Positions 3,225 through 19,141 of a stretch of DNA of 20,859 nt are shown one piece after another. The position numbers were made by a program, and so were the translations under genes. Origin of the DNA: a virus. Under the pieces are notes generated by a model that was not told where the DNA came from, made no database searches, and worked only from the letters and a program-made list of their open reading frames with translations. Positions within the stretch are counted from its first letter, which is position 1. Every line of letters starts with the position of its first letter. Location of the stretch: positions 1 to 20,859 of the IMG/VR virus record IMGVR_UViG_3300006802_000741. The stretch is one strand, 5' to 3'.

Positions 3225-3899
3225 ATGGCACCCGACATCAAACAACCATTTGAATCCCCCTATTCCTCAAACGTTCGTCTGGTCTGGATTACCCCAGCAG
3301 CAGAACACACCATTGAGTATTGTGCTAGGGTTAGTAATCCAAAGGGACAAAACAAGTTAGACACAACCGGAAAGTTGCTTCGCTACCTTGTTGCTAATAA
3401 TCATTGGTCCCCCTTTGAGATGGCAAGTTGCTGCGTGGAGATCAATACCACGAGGGACATAAGCGCACAGATCCTTCGACACAGATCGTTCTCGTTTCAG
3501 GAGTTCTCTCAAAGGTACGCGTCTACTGTGGATGGACTTGGTGGGCTGGAGATTCCGCATCTCCGTAGGCAAGACCTGAAGAACCGTCAGGCTTCCCACG
3601 ACGACCTTACCCGAGAGGAAACACAAGCCTTTTACAGGCGGATCTCTTCGTTGTTTGAAGACCTGGAGCATCTCTACCAAGAAATGCTGAGTTGTGGGGT
3701 TGCTAAGGAGTGTGCTCGTAAGATTCTTCCGATGAATAGTCCAACACGGCTTTACATGTCGGGAACCATCAGGAGCTGGATCCACTACCTTACGGTTAGG
3801 CGTGAAGAAGGTACACAACTTGAACATAGGGTCATTGCTAATCAGATCTATCAAATCCTCAACAAAGAAATGCCAAACCTATGGGAAGTGATCAACTGA
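3225..3899 (+). CDS. thyX: Flavin-dependent thymidylate synthase ThyX
   Basis: 224 aa, full length for the family. ThyX makes dTMP from dUMP using FAD, NADPH and methylenetetrahydrofolate (EC 2.1.1.148). The signature RHRX7S is present as RHRSFSFQEFS (Arg85-Ser95), followed by QRYAS. The upstream HWSPFEMASCCVEI block and the downstream ARKILPMNSPTRLYMSGTIRSW block with the dUMP-binding Arg are also conserved. It stands alone between two non-coding stretches, apart from the main nucleotide cluster at 16-19 kb, and so probably has its own promoter in or near the AT-rich island. No clear Shine-Dalgarno precedes the ATG. The next gene starts 19 nt before its stop. ThyX supplies dTMP for phage DNA and complements the RNR and MazG genes. 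Confidence 0.97.
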   Translation: MAPDIKQPFESPYSSNVRLVWITPAAEHTIEYCARVSNPKGQNKLDTTGKLLRYLVANNHWSPFEMASCCVEINTTRDISAQILRHRSFSFQEFSQRYASTVDGLGGLEIPHLRRQDLKNRQASHDDLTREETQAFYRRISSLFEDLEHLYQEMLSCGVAKECARKILPMNSPTRLYMSGTIRSWIHYLTVRREEGTQLEHRVIANQIYQILNKEMPNLWEVIN

Positions 3900-4180
3900 T
3901 TCTTAATGAGTTTAAAACACTCTATTGGGTATGGAAACGCGGTCTGCCTGATTGGGCCGCGTTCTTGTTGCTTGGGTTTCTTGTTTGGTTAGAAGACAGA
4001 ACCATCAACAAGAGAATTGATAATGTTGTTGATGAGGCTATTAAGGAATATGAAAAGGTTGACCCACCTACTGCTGTTGTGTCGCCTCCTGTTTATTCCG
4101 AATCGGGTAGTGGCTTCTTTGATGAAATGCGTCTCACAGCCCCCTGGAAGGCTCAGGAAGACCCCTCCGACCCTCCGTAG
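3881..4180 (+). CDS. Single-pass membrane protein, possible holin or lysis-related
   Basis: 99 aa, starting inside the 3' end of thyX. One hydrophobic helix (about residues 20-37, LPDWAAFLLLGFLVWLE) is followed by a charged stretch predicted helical (RTINKRIDNVVDEAIKEYEK) and a Pro/Ser-rich hydrophilic tail. A short protein with one membrane helix and a charged helix after it, near the terminase, is reminiscent of T7 gp17.5 (class II holin, 67 aa). There is no detectable identity, so this is inference. A spanin-like or unrelated inner-membrane role is possible. Translational coupling to thyX is likely from the overlap. Confidence 0.75.
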   Translation: MGSDQLILNEFKTLYWVWKRGLPDWAAFLLLGFLVWLEDRTINKRIDNVVDEAIKEYEKVDPPTAVVSPPVYSESGSGFFDEMRLTAPWKAQEDPSDPP

Positions 4181-4236
4181 GTGACATAGCACCTCCGGCC
4201 TCTCGGAGGGCCCTTCTGGGGGCTTCTAGGCGTCAC
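4181..4236 (+). terminator. Branched hairpin structure after the membrane-protein gene
   Basis: GTGAC (4181-4185) can pair with GTCAC (4232-4236), enclosing CCTCCG/CGGAGG (4192-4197/4204-4209, loop GCCTCT) and a short CCC-TTCT-GGG hairpin near 4211-4220. Alternatively CCCTCCG at 4171-4177, overlapping the end of the gene, pairs with CGGAGGG (4204-4210). There is no T run. Probably a 3'-end structure; the alternative pairing would let translation to the stop change the fold. Confidence 0.45.
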
Positions 4237-4433
4237 TCATGAATTTTAACAGAAATTTGTGAAGTCCATACGCATATACGGCGACGCCCAGCACCCCCCA
4301 TGGCCCCCCTTCCTAGTAGATTTGTTCTACTCCCCGGCCCCATCGTGTCCAAACCATGTCCAACCGGCCCTGTCCAGCCCCAAAAGCCAGGCCACCACTA
4401 GGTTGCGTCACTGTCCGATAGGCAGATACGCAA

Positions 4434-4513
4434 GCATTTGGACAGGGATAGCAGTACAAATGCACTATGTGCTACATATAACGCGGGCGCGTGTAGTACG
4501 CGTGTACTTTTTA
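4434..4513 (+). terminator. Three consecutive hairpins ending in a T tract
   Basis: First, GCATTTG/CAAATGC (4434-4440/4457-4463). Second, CTAC plus ACGC (4472-4475, 4481-4484) pairing with GCGT plus GTAG (4489-4496), with a 5-nt bulge and GGGC loop. Third, AGTAC-GCGT-GTACT (4495-4508) followed directly by TTTT. The last resembles an intrinsic terminator with a short stem. The second and third share bases, so they compete. Confidence 0.4.
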
Positions 4514-4521
4514 TATAAAAT
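4512..4521 (+). promoter_or_regulatory. Possible -10 element (TATATAAAAT)
   Basis: A TATATAAAAT block follows the T tract at 4508-4512; a start site would fall near 4526. No good -35 hexamer is seen at the proper distance, as in many cyanobacterial promoters lacking one. It would drive the structured segment downstream. Confidence 0.35.
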
Positions 4522-4525
4522 CTGT

Positions 4526-4814
4526 GCCCTTCGCAATAACGCTTCCTTGTTGAGAATGTTAAAAGATGTGGGTGATTCTCGCGCCTTGGGCCTAGCAGGG
4601 CTTAGGTTGGCTTCGAACCTAGAAAACAGAAGAAGGAAAGCGACGCAGGCCGGGGGTCTCGCGCGATGGGCCATGTTGTGCCCACTTGCGCGTGGTGACC
4701 TTTGGACGGTCTGCAGCCCGATGGTGGCGACCATTGCAAATAAACGCGGAGAGTAGGCAGCTCCAGTCGCGCCTAATTTATTCTTTTATTTGGACAGAAC
4801 GGCCAGCCGTTTTT
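4526..4814 (+). ncRNA. Candidate structured non-coding RNA
   Basis: Downstream of the -10-like block are three hairpins in series: TAGGTT/AACCTA (4603-4608/4616-4621); a long one at 4655-4700 built from GGTC/GACC, CGCGC/GCGCG and TGGGC/GCCCA; and 4719-4725/4730-4736. A terminator-like hairpin with a T run (4798-4814) closes the segment. Start point is inferred from the -10-like block. Not a tRNA: no cloverleaf can be closed. It may instead be merely a structured leader or terminal repeat. Confidence 0.3.
4798..4814 (+). terminator. Intrinsic-terminator-like hairpin
   Basis: AACGG (4798-4802), loop CCAG, CCGTT (4807-4811), then TTT; five consecutive T in all (4810-4814). Lying directly upstream of the early promoter, it could isolate the early operon from upstream transcription. 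Confidence 0.5.
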
Positions 4815-4829
4815 ATCAACGTCGATTCG

Positions 4830-4858
4830 TTGACTGTCCCATTGCCCATAACTATTGG
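4830..4858 (+). promoter_or_regulatory. Candidate host sigma70-type early promoter
   Basis: TTGACT (4830-4835, 5/6 to TTGACA), 17-nt spacer, then TATTGG (4853-4858, weak -10). It lies 24 nt before the first gene of the long operon. Genes upstream of the phage RNA polymerase must be read by host polymerase, so a promoter here is expected. Confidence 0.45.
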
Positions 4859-4868
4859 GCACACACAC
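4854..4868 (+). promoter_or_regulatory. Syn5-like phage RNA polymerase promoter candidate
   Basis: ATTGGGCACACACAC matches the Syn5 RNA polymerase promoter as I recall it (ATTGGGCACCCGTAA) at 11 of 15 positions, including the first nine in a row. I found no other ATTGGGCAC in the window on either strand. It overlaps the -10 of the host-type promoter, so both polymerases could start from the same place. Confidence 0.5.
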
Positions 4869-4873
4869 ACACA
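4860..4873 (+). repeat. (CA)7 dinucleotide tract in the early leader
   Basis: Seven CA units between the promoter candidate and the first start codon. It yields an unstructured, SD-free leader. Confidence 0.8.
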
Positions 4874-4882
4874 AACATCATC

Positions 4883-5197
4883 ATGACTACACTTCACGAA
4901 GCCCTTGCCGCTCGTTTTACCGACAATGATGAGATCCGCGACATAGCTAATCATGGCTGTCCCGGCGGTGTTAATGGTTTCATTTGGAACTATGAAGTCG
5001 CTGAATTCTTCGATCAATATGAAGAAGAGATCTATGATTATCTCAATGATTGCGAGATGTCTATGAAAGATTTTGTTAAAGACAACGGCAACACTATTAC
5101 CACACTCAAAGTTAACATGGTGTGGGCTGTTGTTGAACAATGGTGTCATGTTTCAAACATGATTAATCAAATGGAAGCTGTTGCACTTGCATCCTGA
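4883..5197 (+). CDS. First early gene, conserved hypothetical (DUF7222-like)
   Basis: 104 aa from ATG 4883. The frame is open upstream, but the stretch there contains the promoter and terminator signals, so the later ATG is chosen; no Shine-Dalgarno is visible. The motif IRDIANHGCPGGVNGFIWNY followed by EVAEFFDQYEEEIYDYLND is reminiscent of a small family in phages and plasmids that I recall as DUF7222 (I(R/A)DIANHGC...GGFIY...). Acidic, soluble, predicted helical. Being first after the early promoter, it is likely among the earliest and most abundant products, a typical place for host-takeover proteins. Function unknown. Confidence 0.85.
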   Translation: MTTLHEALAARFTDNDEIRDIANHGCPGGVNGFIWNYEVAEFFDQYEEEIYDYLNDCEMSMKDFVKDNGNTITTLKVNMVWAVVEQWCHVSNMINQMEAVALAS

Positions 5198-5199
5198 TT

Positions 5200-5255
5200 G
5201 TTACACTTAGGGATGAGTTAATCGCCATCCCTTTCTGTAACCCTTCAAGGTTACA
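5200..5255 (+). promoter_or_regulatory. Alternative hairpins in the only interior gap of the operon
   Basis: Form A: GTTACA (5200-5205) pairs with TGTAAC (5236-5241), enclosing AGGGATG/CATCCCT (5209-5215/5226-5232) with a symmetric 3x3 internal loop. Form B: the same TGTAAC pairs with a second GTTACA (5250-5255), loop 8 nt. GTTACACTT occurs twice (5200-5208, 5250-5258). Form A and B are mutually exclusive. Possible attenuator, processing site or RNA switch before the gene at 5277. Confidence 0.55.
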
Positions 5256-5276
5256 CTTCTCACAAACCTCTTATCT

Positions 5277-5477
5277 ATGAAAACCGCAACCTTCCGCATC
5301 ACCACAAGTTATGGCAACATACGTTGCTATCCTGTGGATGCAACTGCCAAGCTATTGTGTGATCTTTCAGGGTTTAAGACCTTACTACCAAACACTTTAA
5401 CTATCATGGAGGATCTAGGTTTCATTTGTATTAATGAGATCAATGATTCCACGATCACACCTTCCCAACTCTACTAA
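5277..5477 (+). CDS. Small early hypothetical protein
   Basis: 66 aa. Contains FRITTSYGNIRCYPVDATAK and a KTLLPNTLTIMEDLGF segment; I recall short phage and bacterial proteins with the pattern TSYGNxRxYP...LxxxKTLTPxxLxxIxxLGF, none with a known function. Mixed alpha/beta, soluble. It lies after the alternative-hairpin gap and 9 nt before the next gene. Confidence 0.8.
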   Translation: MKTATFRITTSYGNIRCYPVDATAKLLCDLSGFKTLLPNTLTIMEDLGFICINEINDSTITPSQLY

Positions 5478-5486
5478 ATCACAACA

Positions 5487-16423: not shown

Positions 16424-16616
16424 GCATTACCAACATGGACGAATCCAAGTTTGGGATTTTATTGTGGATCAGCAGCTCGATTTTCTGGCTGGTAATGTCG
16501 TTAAGTATCTCTGCCGTGCTGGCCGAAAGGATAAGGAGTCTACGCTTGACGACCTCCTCAAGGCTCAAGTATACCTCAATAAAAAAATCGAATCCCTGAC
16601 TGATGAAAACCCCTGA
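16317..16616 (+). CDS. DUF3310 protein (related to the T7 gp1.7 group)
   Basis: 99 aa from ATG 16317; an in-frame GTG at 16254 would add 21 residues. The domain occupies residues about 31-90: SKINPKHYQHGRIQVWDFIVDQQLDFLAGNV with VKYLCRAGRKDKESTLDDLLKAQVYL, the typical HY...E/W..D...G...KYL.R.G.K...DL.KA..YL pattern. T7 gp1.7, which contains this domain, is a nucleotide kinase (dTMP/dGMP), so a nucleotide role fits the neighbours MazG and RNR. An N-terminal 30-residue Asn/Ser/acidic stretch precedes it. Confidence 0.88.
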   Translation: MTNNRYDRDQWDDFYESENSVTSNENTATFSKINPKHYQHGRIQVWDFIVDQQLDFLAGNVVKYLCRAGRKDKESTLDDLLKAQVYLNKKIESLTDENP

Positions 16617-16980
16617 GCACCTGATTGAACAAGCGTTTGTCTTTCGACTTGCTGCTGAACAATCAATTGATCCAGATGATGAAGCAGTTCAAGAGATGCA
16701 ACTCACCCTCATTCGGGAAGAGTTTAATGAACTTCTTGAGGCTCACATCAATGAAGAAGAAGAATCCGATAAGGTTCATACCTTAAAGGAACTAGCAGAT
16801 CTCGTCTTTGTCTGTTACCAATATGCCGTTGCTCGCAACTGGAACCTTGACATCGCCCTAACGCGAGTGTTCGAATCCAACATGAGCAAGTTCGTGGACG
16901 GGAAGCCCCTCCGCCGCGAAGATGGTAAGATACTCAAGGGGCCCAACTACCAACCACCTTTCCTTGACGACCTCGTATGA
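16603..16980 (+). CDS. mazG: MazG-like nucleotide pyrophosphohydrolase
   Basis: 125 aa, all-alpha NTP-PPase superfamily. Metal ligands are in REEFNELLEA (ExxE) and LKELADLVFVCYQYA (ExxD), with the C-terminal block RVFESNMSKFVDGKPLRREDGKI...GPNYQPP typical of phage members (HisE/PRA-PH-like). The family hydrolyses (d)NTPs to monophosphates; cyanophage MazG has been proposed to act on (p)ppGpp, but reported biochemistry favours dNTPs such as dGTP and dCTP. The overlaps (14 nt before, ATGA after) tie it to DUF3310 and RNR. Confidence 0.9.
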   Translation: MKTPEHLIEQAFVFRLAAEQSIDPDDEAVQEMQLTLIREEFNELLEAHINEEEESDKVHTLKELADLVFVCYQYAVARNWNLDIALTRVFESNMSKFVDGKPLRREDGKILKGPNYQPPFLDDLV

Positions 16981-18410
16981 CCGCCTTTGCTGACCTCGGG
17001 GACACCCCCAACACTATCGCCCGGACTGGTCGCGTCCAGAATTGGATCGATGATCCGGAATCCCGTTTGCCCGTGTCTTGCACAGTCTTTGTTGTTGAAG
17101 ATGAAATGGAGGGACCCAATGGAATCGAAGCCTCATGGCGCTTTGTCTCACACGCTCTCCGCAACGGAGCAGGAGTTGCTGTTCACCTATCTAAACTCCG
17201 TGAACGAGGCAGCGAAAATGGAAGAGGACTCGTGGCGTCTGGCCCTGTGTCATTCGCCCGCATCTACTCAACCCTCAACGAAATCCTGAGGCGCGGTGGT
17301 GTCTACAAGAATGGTGCCGTGGTGTGTCACCTTGATTACACCCACCCTGATGCTATTGAGTTTATCAAGGCTTCCCGCACTGAACTATCTTGGGTCAAGC
17401 GTTGCCTCAATGTAGATCCTGGGTTCCTCACCACTGCTTCCCCTGAGCTGATTGACGCCACCCTTGAAGGTATTAAGAAGGGTGACATTTGGCTGAATAA
17501 GATCCGCTACGACGCGGAAGGTAATCGAATTTATGGAAATGTCTGCCTTGAAGTTTATCTTCCTAGCCGTGGTACTTGTCTACTTCAGCACATCAATCTG
17601 GGTGCTTGCCGCCTTGAAGACCTCACCCCAGCTTTCGTAGAAGGGATGACTTCTCTTGTTAATCTTCATGCCAAGACTGGTGTGGGAGAAACAGGAGAGT
17701 ACCTGGATCCTGAGGTGGATAAGCAGGTTGGTTTGGGTGTGCTTGGGCTGGCTAACTTTCTTTGTCAGAACAACGTCACCTACAAACAATTTGGAGAAGC
17801 CTTAGATGCTTACCATTCACACCAACCGACACACACACCAGCATACATTCTCGTTTCAGAGCTGGCCAAGTCAATTGAAATTGCGGCGCAGATCGCTCGT
17901 CAAGCAGGTATGCACCGGGCCTTTGCTATTGCTCCTACCGCTTCTTGTAGTTACAACAACATTGATCTTCGGGGCTACACTACCACTCCTGAGTTGGCTC
18001 CTCCTATCAGCCGCCACGTTGACCGCGATTCTGGGACGTTTGGAGTACAATCATATGCGTACCCGCCTGATTGCGAAATCGCGTCGGAAGTAGGGTGGCA
18101 TGATTACCGAAAGGTAGTTGATGGGGTAGTGACGTTGTTCCGCTCAACAATGCTATTTCATGGATACTCCTTCAATAGCTGGTCCGATGTTGTGACTTAT
18201 GACCGAGAGTTCCTTAGGGAATGGATGGCATCATCCCAGACTTCCCTTTACTATGCTCTTCAGGTCATGCCAGATACGCAAGCAAAGGATGATGCTCTTG
18301 CTGCCCTAGATGATGACTTCAAAGATCTCTTCTCATTTGAAGAGGAGGATTGTGGTTGTCCTGTTTCCGAACCAACCAACGACAACATTTGTATTCCTTG
18401 CGGAGAATAA
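16977..18410 (+). CDS. Ribonucleotide reductase alpha subunit (class 0/class I-like, minimal)
   Basis: 477 aa, much shorter than class Ia NrdA (about 760). Converts ribonucleotides to deoxyribonucleotides. Active site: Cys35 (VSCTV) and Cys201 (GTCLL) as redox pair; Asn188-Cys190-Glu192 in GNVCLEV as radical Cys motif; PTASCSYNN loop. Tyr425-Tyr426 in TSLYYAL match the E. coli Tyr730-Tyr731 radical-transfer pair, which class II enzymes lack. C-terminal Cys459, Cys461, Cys472 and Cys475 form the swinging reducing tail. There is no ATP cone, so overall activity is not ATP/dATP-controlled there. Older annotation would say class II NrdJ, but the adjacent beta gene and the Tyr pair argue for the cyanophage clade called class 0 (described around Synechococcus phage S-CBP4). 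Confidence 0.92.
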   Translation: MTAFADLGDTPNTIARTGRVQNWIDDPESRLPVSCTVFVVEDEMEGPNGIEASWRFVSHALRNGAGVAVHLSKLRERGSENGRGLVASGPVSFARIYSTLNEILRRGGVYKNGAVVCHLDYTHPDAIEFIKASRTELSWVKRCLNVDPGFLTTASPELIDATLEGIKKGDIWLNKIRYDAEGNRIYGNVCLEVYLPSRGTCLLQHINLGACRLEDLTPAFVEGMTSLVNLHAKTGVGETGEYLDPEVDKQVGLGVLGLANFLCQNNVTYKQFGEALDAYHSHQPTHTPAYILVSELAKSIEIAAQIARQAGMHRAFAIAPTASCSYNNIDLRGYTTTPELAPPISRHVDRDSGTFGVQSYAYPPDCEIASEVGWHDYRKVVDGVVTLFRSTMLFHGYSFNSWSDVVTYDREFLREWMASSQTSLYYALQVMPDTQAKDDALAALDDDFKDLFSFEEEDCGCPVSEPTNDNICIPCGE

Positions 18411-19141
18411 TGAACGCAACTCTTTCCCCCTATGATCAAGTAATTTCAAGAAAAAGAAAATGGACTCCGGTTGCTGTTCAAAAGGGGAAACTCGTTGACG
18501 GGGCTGAGGATGCACTTTACCGTGCCCTTGGTCTCCGTCATCTTGAATTGCCGGTGCGAGAGTTCCTACAACAGGGACTCGAAAAGGAACTACCTAATAC
18601 CCCTGGTGTTAGAGAAGCTCTTCTGTCTAACCAGTTGGATGAAGAGAGGCATGATCAAGCCCTTAACTATGTAGTGGCTGCTCATGGTTCAAATGAAAAG
18701 TTTGAATCCGAAGCCAAGCACATTCTTAAGGCGTGGCTGGATGCCCCTGAACATCCACTTCTAAAAGCCGCTATCCTTGAACGCAGTGTCTTCTTCGTCA
18801 TCCTCCCCTTCTTCCGATTCAACGGTGACATCGGAATCCGAACCACAGCAGCCGACATCAGCCGAGATGAACAAACGCATGTCGCAATCCACTCGATGGT
18901 CTGCTCCGAGTTGGGCCTTAAGTCCACATCAAGCCTCAATCGACTTCGTAGAGCGACTGTGGGATGGGTAGTAGATGGGCTGGGTAAATCTCAAAATAAG
19001 TATCTTGATAAAGATTTTTGGTTGGCTCAATCTGATTCCCTCTACGAAAGAGGAAAAGCACCAGGACTAAAGGAAACCCAGCGGGCTCGTATGCCTGCTT
19101 TCTTTGAAGCCTCTAACAACGACCTTCCACAATATGGCTGA
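18410..19141 (+). CDS. Ferritin-like RNR beta subunit (metal cofactor, apparently lacking the radical Tyr)
   Basis: 243 aa from ATG 18410 (MNATLSPYDQ), sharing one base with the alpha stop; SD-like GGAG at 18402-18405. Metal ligands: a Glu near 46-51 (ELPVREF), Glu78-xx-His81 (DEERHDQ), Glu124 (ILERSVFF), and Glu154-xx-His157 (DEQTHVAIH), in the ferritin/NrdB order. In E. coli NrdB the radical Tyr122 lies four residues after His118; here that place is Leu85, so no Tyr. The C-terminus ends NNDLPQYG, whose Tyr242 could be the Tyr356-equivalent relay. It provides the oxidising cofactor for the alpha subunit. Confidence 0.9.
   Translation: MNATLSPYDQVISRKRKWTPVAVQKGKLVDGAEDALYRALGLRHLELPVREFLQQGLEKELPNTPGVREALLSNQLDEERHDQALNYVVAAHGSNEKFESEAKHILKAWLDAPEHPLLKAAILERSVFFVILPFFRFNGDIGIRTTAADISRDEQTHVAIHSMVCSELGLKSTSSLNRLRRATVGWVVDGLGKSQNKYLDKDFWLAQSDSLYERGKAPGLKETQRARMPAFFEASNNDLPQYG

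Follow-up and report, generated by a model that had tools for sequence, protein, structure and literature searches.

The window, by which we mean the whole stretch of DNA analysed here (20,859 bases), is a viral record from IMG/VR. Its gene set is T7-like and includes a terminase, ThyX, a single-subunit RNA polymerase, an endonuclease, a primase/helicase, a DNA polymerase, MazG and a ribonucleotide reductase (RNR) pair. The genes of nucleotide metabolism considered here are:

3225..3899, plus strand: ThyX-type thymidylate synthase (phrog_85), also part of phage nucleotide metabolism
16603..16980, plus strand: MazG-type nucleotide pyrophosphohydrolase, upstream of alpha in the same gene run
16977..18410, plus strand: predicted class Ø RNR catalytic alpha subunit, 477 amino acids (7urg alignment, PF02867)
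18410..19141, plus strand: predicted class Ø ferritin-like radical-generating beta subunit, 243 amino acids (phrog_6799, E 3e-114; predicted fold)

The terminase (969-2705) comes first in the window and a portal-like open reading frame (19567 onward) last, with ThyX and the RNA polymerase in between, an order that might arise if the assembly ran across the termini of a T7-like genome. From ThyX to the phage genes that follow it, the stretch 3900-5480 offers only short or doubtful open reading frames. tRNA and Rfam searches of the window returned no match, and megablast of the window against the annotated phage collection found no match at the nucleotide level. Protein relatives of alpha and beta occur in 56 annotated phage records, from cyanophages, and there are 274 related stretches in IMG/VR. 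Purifying selection acts strongly on the two genes (beta, pN 0.01-0.08 versus pS 0.16-0.72; alpha, pN about 0.04 versus pS about 0.4). Given this selection and the many relatives, we do not regard the pair as a product of chance. The selection shared by the two genes and the single base by which the alpha stop and the beta start overlap (taATG) also speak for the explanation of the pair as a minimal class Ø RNR that is set out below.

Class assignment and the alpha subunit

Judged by its sequence, the pair belongs to the class Ø (“Cyano SP”) ribonucleotide reductases, as the original prediction of a minimal class 0-like enzyme had held, and every class feature tested was found. Specifically; 1) alpha is a full-length homologue of the S-CBP4 alpha, consisting of the barrel only, with no ATP cone; 2) an adjacent tyrosine pair lies near its C-terminus (Y425-Y426); 3) of the C-terminal CXC or CXXC expected, both are present; 4) a ferritin-like gene of the expected size (~240 amino acids) follows immediately downstream; and, 5) the radical tyrosine site of that protein, which carries Phe or Leu in class Ø, is L85, and its chain ends just after a tyrosine. 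Class Ø was defined by Burnim et al. (2022), who solved the S-CBP4 alpha structure (PMC9531940), and according to a 2026 preprint it is still biochemically uncharacterised (PMC12918982).

The window alpha aligns with the S-CBP4 alpha (PDB 7urg) over residues 12-462 (E 1.2e-207, ~70% identity), the next-best PDB match being 6dqw (named ribonucleoside-diphosphate reductase alpha chain, 4.5e-10). It begins directly before the barrel, so that no upstream residues could form an ATP cone. Taking residue numbering and roles for S-CBP4 from PMC9531940, C35, C190 and C201 correspond to S-CBP4 C30, C185 and C196, with the offset constant at 5. The features of interest in alpha are:

17544..17546, plus strand: Cys190, putative finger-loop (thiyl) cysteine, equivalent to S-CBP4 C185 (7urg alignment)
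18249..18254, plus strand: Tyr425-Tyr426, putative radical-transfer dyad, equivalent to S-CBP4 Y420-Y421 (7urg alignment)
18351..18401, plus strand: putative redox tail, C459-G-C461 (CXC) followed by C472-I-P-C475 (CXXC) (alpha alignments)

The tyrosine dyad is invariant across the 12 phage class Ø alphas aligned (12/12). Thus the claims first made for alpha, namely a 477-residue chain lacking an ATP cone, the retained Tyr425-Tyr426 pair and four C-terminal cysteines, all stand.

Published class Ø tails are reported to carry either CXC or CXXC; of the complete ones, Burnim et al. count 10 with CXXC and 14 with CXC (PMC9531940). The S-CBP4 tail has only CXC, whereas the window alpha has CXC plus CXXC, as do most alphas of its uncultured clade. 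Among the alpha tails that we compared, which include a few duplicate loci from one genome, CXC followed by CXXC was seen in 61, CXXC alone in 27 and CXC alone in 15, and in 11 a single cysteine preceded the last pair by four to six residues. As close relatives that lack CXC retain CXXC (e.g. L014 and L044), CXXC is the likelier working redox pair of the tail.

The beta subunit and its putative metal site

The residues of beta on which the interpretation turns are:

18461..18463, plus strand: Trp18, invariant among 118 beta sequences, candidate equivalent of E. coli W48
18545..18547, plus strand: Glu46, putative first metal ligand (conservation)
18641..18652, plus strand: Glu78-xx-His81, first ExxH metal motif, with D77 just before it (conservation)
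18662..18664, plus strand: Leu85, at the place of the class Ia radical Tyr122 and class Ic Phe127 (His81 + 4; weak 1syy alignment)
18668..18670, plus strand: Tyr87, non-invariant (F, M or N in 10/118)
18779..18781, plus strand: Glu124, putative metal ligand equivalent to E. coli E204 (alignment)
18866..18880, plus strand: Asp153-Glu154-xx-His157, second ExxH metal motif, D153 being equivalent to E. coli D237 (alignment)
19133..19135, plus strand: Tyr242, putative intersubunit relay (E. coli Y356), the only invariant tyrosine of beta (conservation; PMC9531940)

Using AlphaFold2 with 22 sequences we obtained a beta model with a mean pLDDT of 87.5, in which the tail (residues 224-243) is poorly modelled, at low confidence. 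When this model was compared with the PDB using Foldseek, the best 50 matches were all class I R2 proteins or class I RNR complexes (E-values from 2e-4); the best four included two chains of Chlamydia trachomatis R2, the Mn/Fe protein of class Ic, with a class Id R2 close behind. A search of the PDB with the beta sequence found no relative. Profile-profile comparison with eight class I NrdB proteins was weak, covering the second metal motif only, and the matches to the class Ic R2 (1syy) were likewise weak, placing L85 on Phe127 and Y87 on Tyr129.

That the radical tyrosine is missing from such proteins is already in print. Harrison et al. (2019) described the P-SSP7 beta as having no Tyr122, first-sphere ligands as in classes Ic and Id and a unique second-sphere pattern (D, D), and they proposed a new subclass (PMC6370689), while Burnim et al. 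reported that in class Ø beta the radical site is occupied by Phe or Leu, that the chain has a terminal tyrosine and that it lacks a docking extension (PMC9531940). Our analysis adds the conservation of these features across 118 beta sequences of full length, drawn from IMG/VR, phage records and bacterial/archaeal assemblies (32 representatives at 90% identity). The Tyr122 place holds Leu in 115 and Phe in three, and never Tyr. Ten residues are invariant (W18, E46, D77, E78, H81, E124, D153, E154, W186 and Y242), and H157 is kept throughout except for one ambiguous base, so that the six ligands are held. Tyr87 is replaced by Phe in six sequences, Met in two and Asn in two, leaving Tyr in 108, and Tyr8 is Phe in eight; the sole invariant tyrosine is therefore Y242, the penultimate residue of a chain that ends Y242-G243. 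The original prediction had described six ferritin-like ligands, Leu85 four residues after His81 in the Tyr122 place and a retained Tyr242, and the wider alignment agrees with it on all three, the ligands being E46, E78, H81, E124, E154 and H157, with D77 and D153 in the second sphere.

The closest described system is the S-CBP4 enzyme, which shares with the window pair its size, barrel, tyrosine dyad, catalytic cysteines and lack of an ATP cone, as well as a short ferritin-like beta that carries Leu/Phe where the radical tyrosine would be and has a terminal tyrosine, although the window alpha is ~70% and the window beta ~55% identical. The ligand order E E H E E H, the second-sphere D, D and the missing Tyr122 are those of the Cyano SP group and the proposed subclass If (P-SSP7; PMC6370689), but the window beta is 66-67% identical to those of Syn5 and SS120-1, its closest relatives among published phages. 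Chlamydia trachomatis R2 has in common with the window beta a redox-inert residue at the radical site, the first-sphere ligands and a similar predicted fold; however, the window beta is ~100 residues shorter and has no docking tail, and in sequence its alpha, which lacks an ATP cone, does not belong to class I. Class Id (Flavobacterium johnsoniae, Mn/Mn) shares the first-sphere ligands and a small alpha without an ATP cone, but keeps the tyrosine and has larger subunits.

Where the oxidising equivalent may be kept

We consider it probable that the window encodes a minimal class Ø RNR of a T7-like cyanophage, in which the oxidising equivalent is stored on metal and passed from Y242 to the tyrosine dyad of alpha. 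The analysis shows sequence, conservation, predicted fold and gene neighbourhood, and we infer the identity of the metals, the storage of the radical, the order of the relay and the activity of the enzyme as follows. Beta would bind two metals through E46/E78/H81 and E124/E154/H157, and these would react with O2 or superoxide. Because L85 replaces the radical tyrosine, the resulting one-electron oxidising equivalent would be kept on the metal cluster itself, the likeliest metals being Mn/Fe, the pair used by class Ic, and failing that Mn/Mn, the pair used by class Id. During turnover the hole would travel via D153 and W18, as putative intermediates, to Tyr242 of the beta tail, then to Tyr426-Tyr425 of alpha and on to Cys190, starting nucleotide reduction, with C35/C201 giving the electrons and the tail cysteines re-reducing them. 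Such an enzyme could supply the infecting cyanophage with dNTP precursors independently of host cobalamin. Several points count against this explanation. The class Ø beta tail is shorter than class I docking normally requires (PMC9531940), and in our model it is of low confidence; the profile comparison with class I NrdB is weak; and in the published beta phylogeny Cyano SP beta branches apart from class Ic (PMC6370689).

A metal-based, class Ic-like store, which was one of the options first proposed, is supported by the Leu/Phe at the Tyr122 place and by Y242 being the only invariant tyrosine, and is itself in print (PMC6370689, PMC9531940). Within it, a Mn(IV)/Mn(III) cluster formed with superoxide, as in class Id, in place of Mn/Fe seems unlikely, though it is the most probable of the alternatives. 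The first-sphere pattern EEHEEH is identical in classes Ic and Id, where the first ligand is Glu, compared with Asp in Ia and Ib (residue table, PMC6370689), a class Id R2 comes up among the top predicted-fold matches, and a non-exhaustive search recognised no NrdI gene among the annotated genes of the window. However, class Id keeps its tyrosine, and class Ø has Leu/Phe there, as the redox-inert site of class Ic does; the second-sphere D77 matches neither class (PMC6370689).

It is improbable, more so than a Mn/Mn cluster, that a different side chain holds the radical, whether Tyr87, a tryptophan or a modified residue of the kind represented by the DOPA of class Ie. The DOPA residue of class Ie occupies the Tyr122 place, and in class Ø beta this is Leu/Phe. 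Tyr87, which the original prediction had offered as a possible site, is indeed common and falls, in a weak alignment, on Chlamydia R2 Tyr129, and both W18 and W186 are invariant. Yet the ten betas with F, M or N at position 87 have all their metal ligands intact and include two close relatives of the window (L067 and L074, both Phe87, 88% beta identity), so Tyr87 can be rejected as an obligatory radical site and storage of the oxidising equivalent on metal is the preferred explanation. By helix geometry Tyr87, at His81 + 6, would also lie on the opposite helix face from His81 + 4. Finally, it is most improbable that alpha is a cobalamin enzyme of class II, as in the first P-SSP7 annotation and other older records, with the ferritin-like gene doing another job, since, although the alpha sequence is closer to class II than to class I (PMC9531940), its dyad is kept in every aligned alpha and the equivalent pair in 7urg is stacked beside the catalytic cysteine, at the site of the class II adenosyl pocket (PMC9531940), and a beta of predicted R2 fold lies downstream of alpha in nearly all loci.

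Class Ø in phages and in cells

In a beta tree built within class Ø only, the window falls in its own uncultured clade (support 100/100), on the Syn5/SS120-1/S-CBS4 side of the tree and apart from the P-SSP7/S-RIP1/S-SRP01 group, and on this placement it adds a new uncultured clade to class Ø. The named phages in the tree are cyanophages, the nearest isolates being those 66-67% identical in beta, and several rows come from metagenome-assembled genomes (MAGs) of other phyla, which may be phage sequence binned with them. One related class Ø beta gene, on a MAG contig, contains a group I intron (RF00028, 86.5 bits; L110:4067-4345) at the second ExxH metal motif, where the reading frame breaks after ..ADISRD.

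Class Ø also occurs outside phages. Two cyanobacterial genomes of the Limnothrix type carry a class Ø pair, namely Limnothrix sp. CACIAM 69d (L109:4582-6711) and G022 (L146:8177-10306, on a 472-kb contig), in a conserved chromosomal order, with neighbours named from their translations, of metE-like, alpha, beta, a small gene and a prolyl-tRNA synthetase-like gene (proS). Between these two genomes the pair is under purifying selection much like that on metE (pN/pS: beta 0.022/0.349, alpha 0.016/0.232, metE 0.020/0.207). It is not the sole RNR of Limnothrix, whose genome (L109) also contains a class II NrdJ. Across the cyanobacterial class, 3/390 genomes have a class Ø beta. In its text the class Ø paper calls these enzymes marine and makes no mention of Limnothrix (PMC9531940). 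A lone beta, with W109 and Y87 changed, is found in Calothrix (L106:5971-6723, genome G002) and in an IMG/VR viral record (L121:1-714), and no class Ø alpha was detected in that genome or that record.

A broader reading, which we advance only tentatively, is that class Ø is a biochemically new RNR class, with a metal-only store and a second sphere and docking unlike those of the characterised subclasses, and that a cellular version is maintained beside metE in some cyanobacterial chromosomes (Limnothrix-type) in addition to the class II enzyme. These cellular copies may be easier to study, in their own host. Burnim et al. have proposed that the clade lies near the root of class I and II RNRs (PMC9531940) and, for an enzyme placed near the split between these classes, conservation narrows the seat of the oxidising equivalent to the metals, with Y242 as the sole invariant tyrosine.
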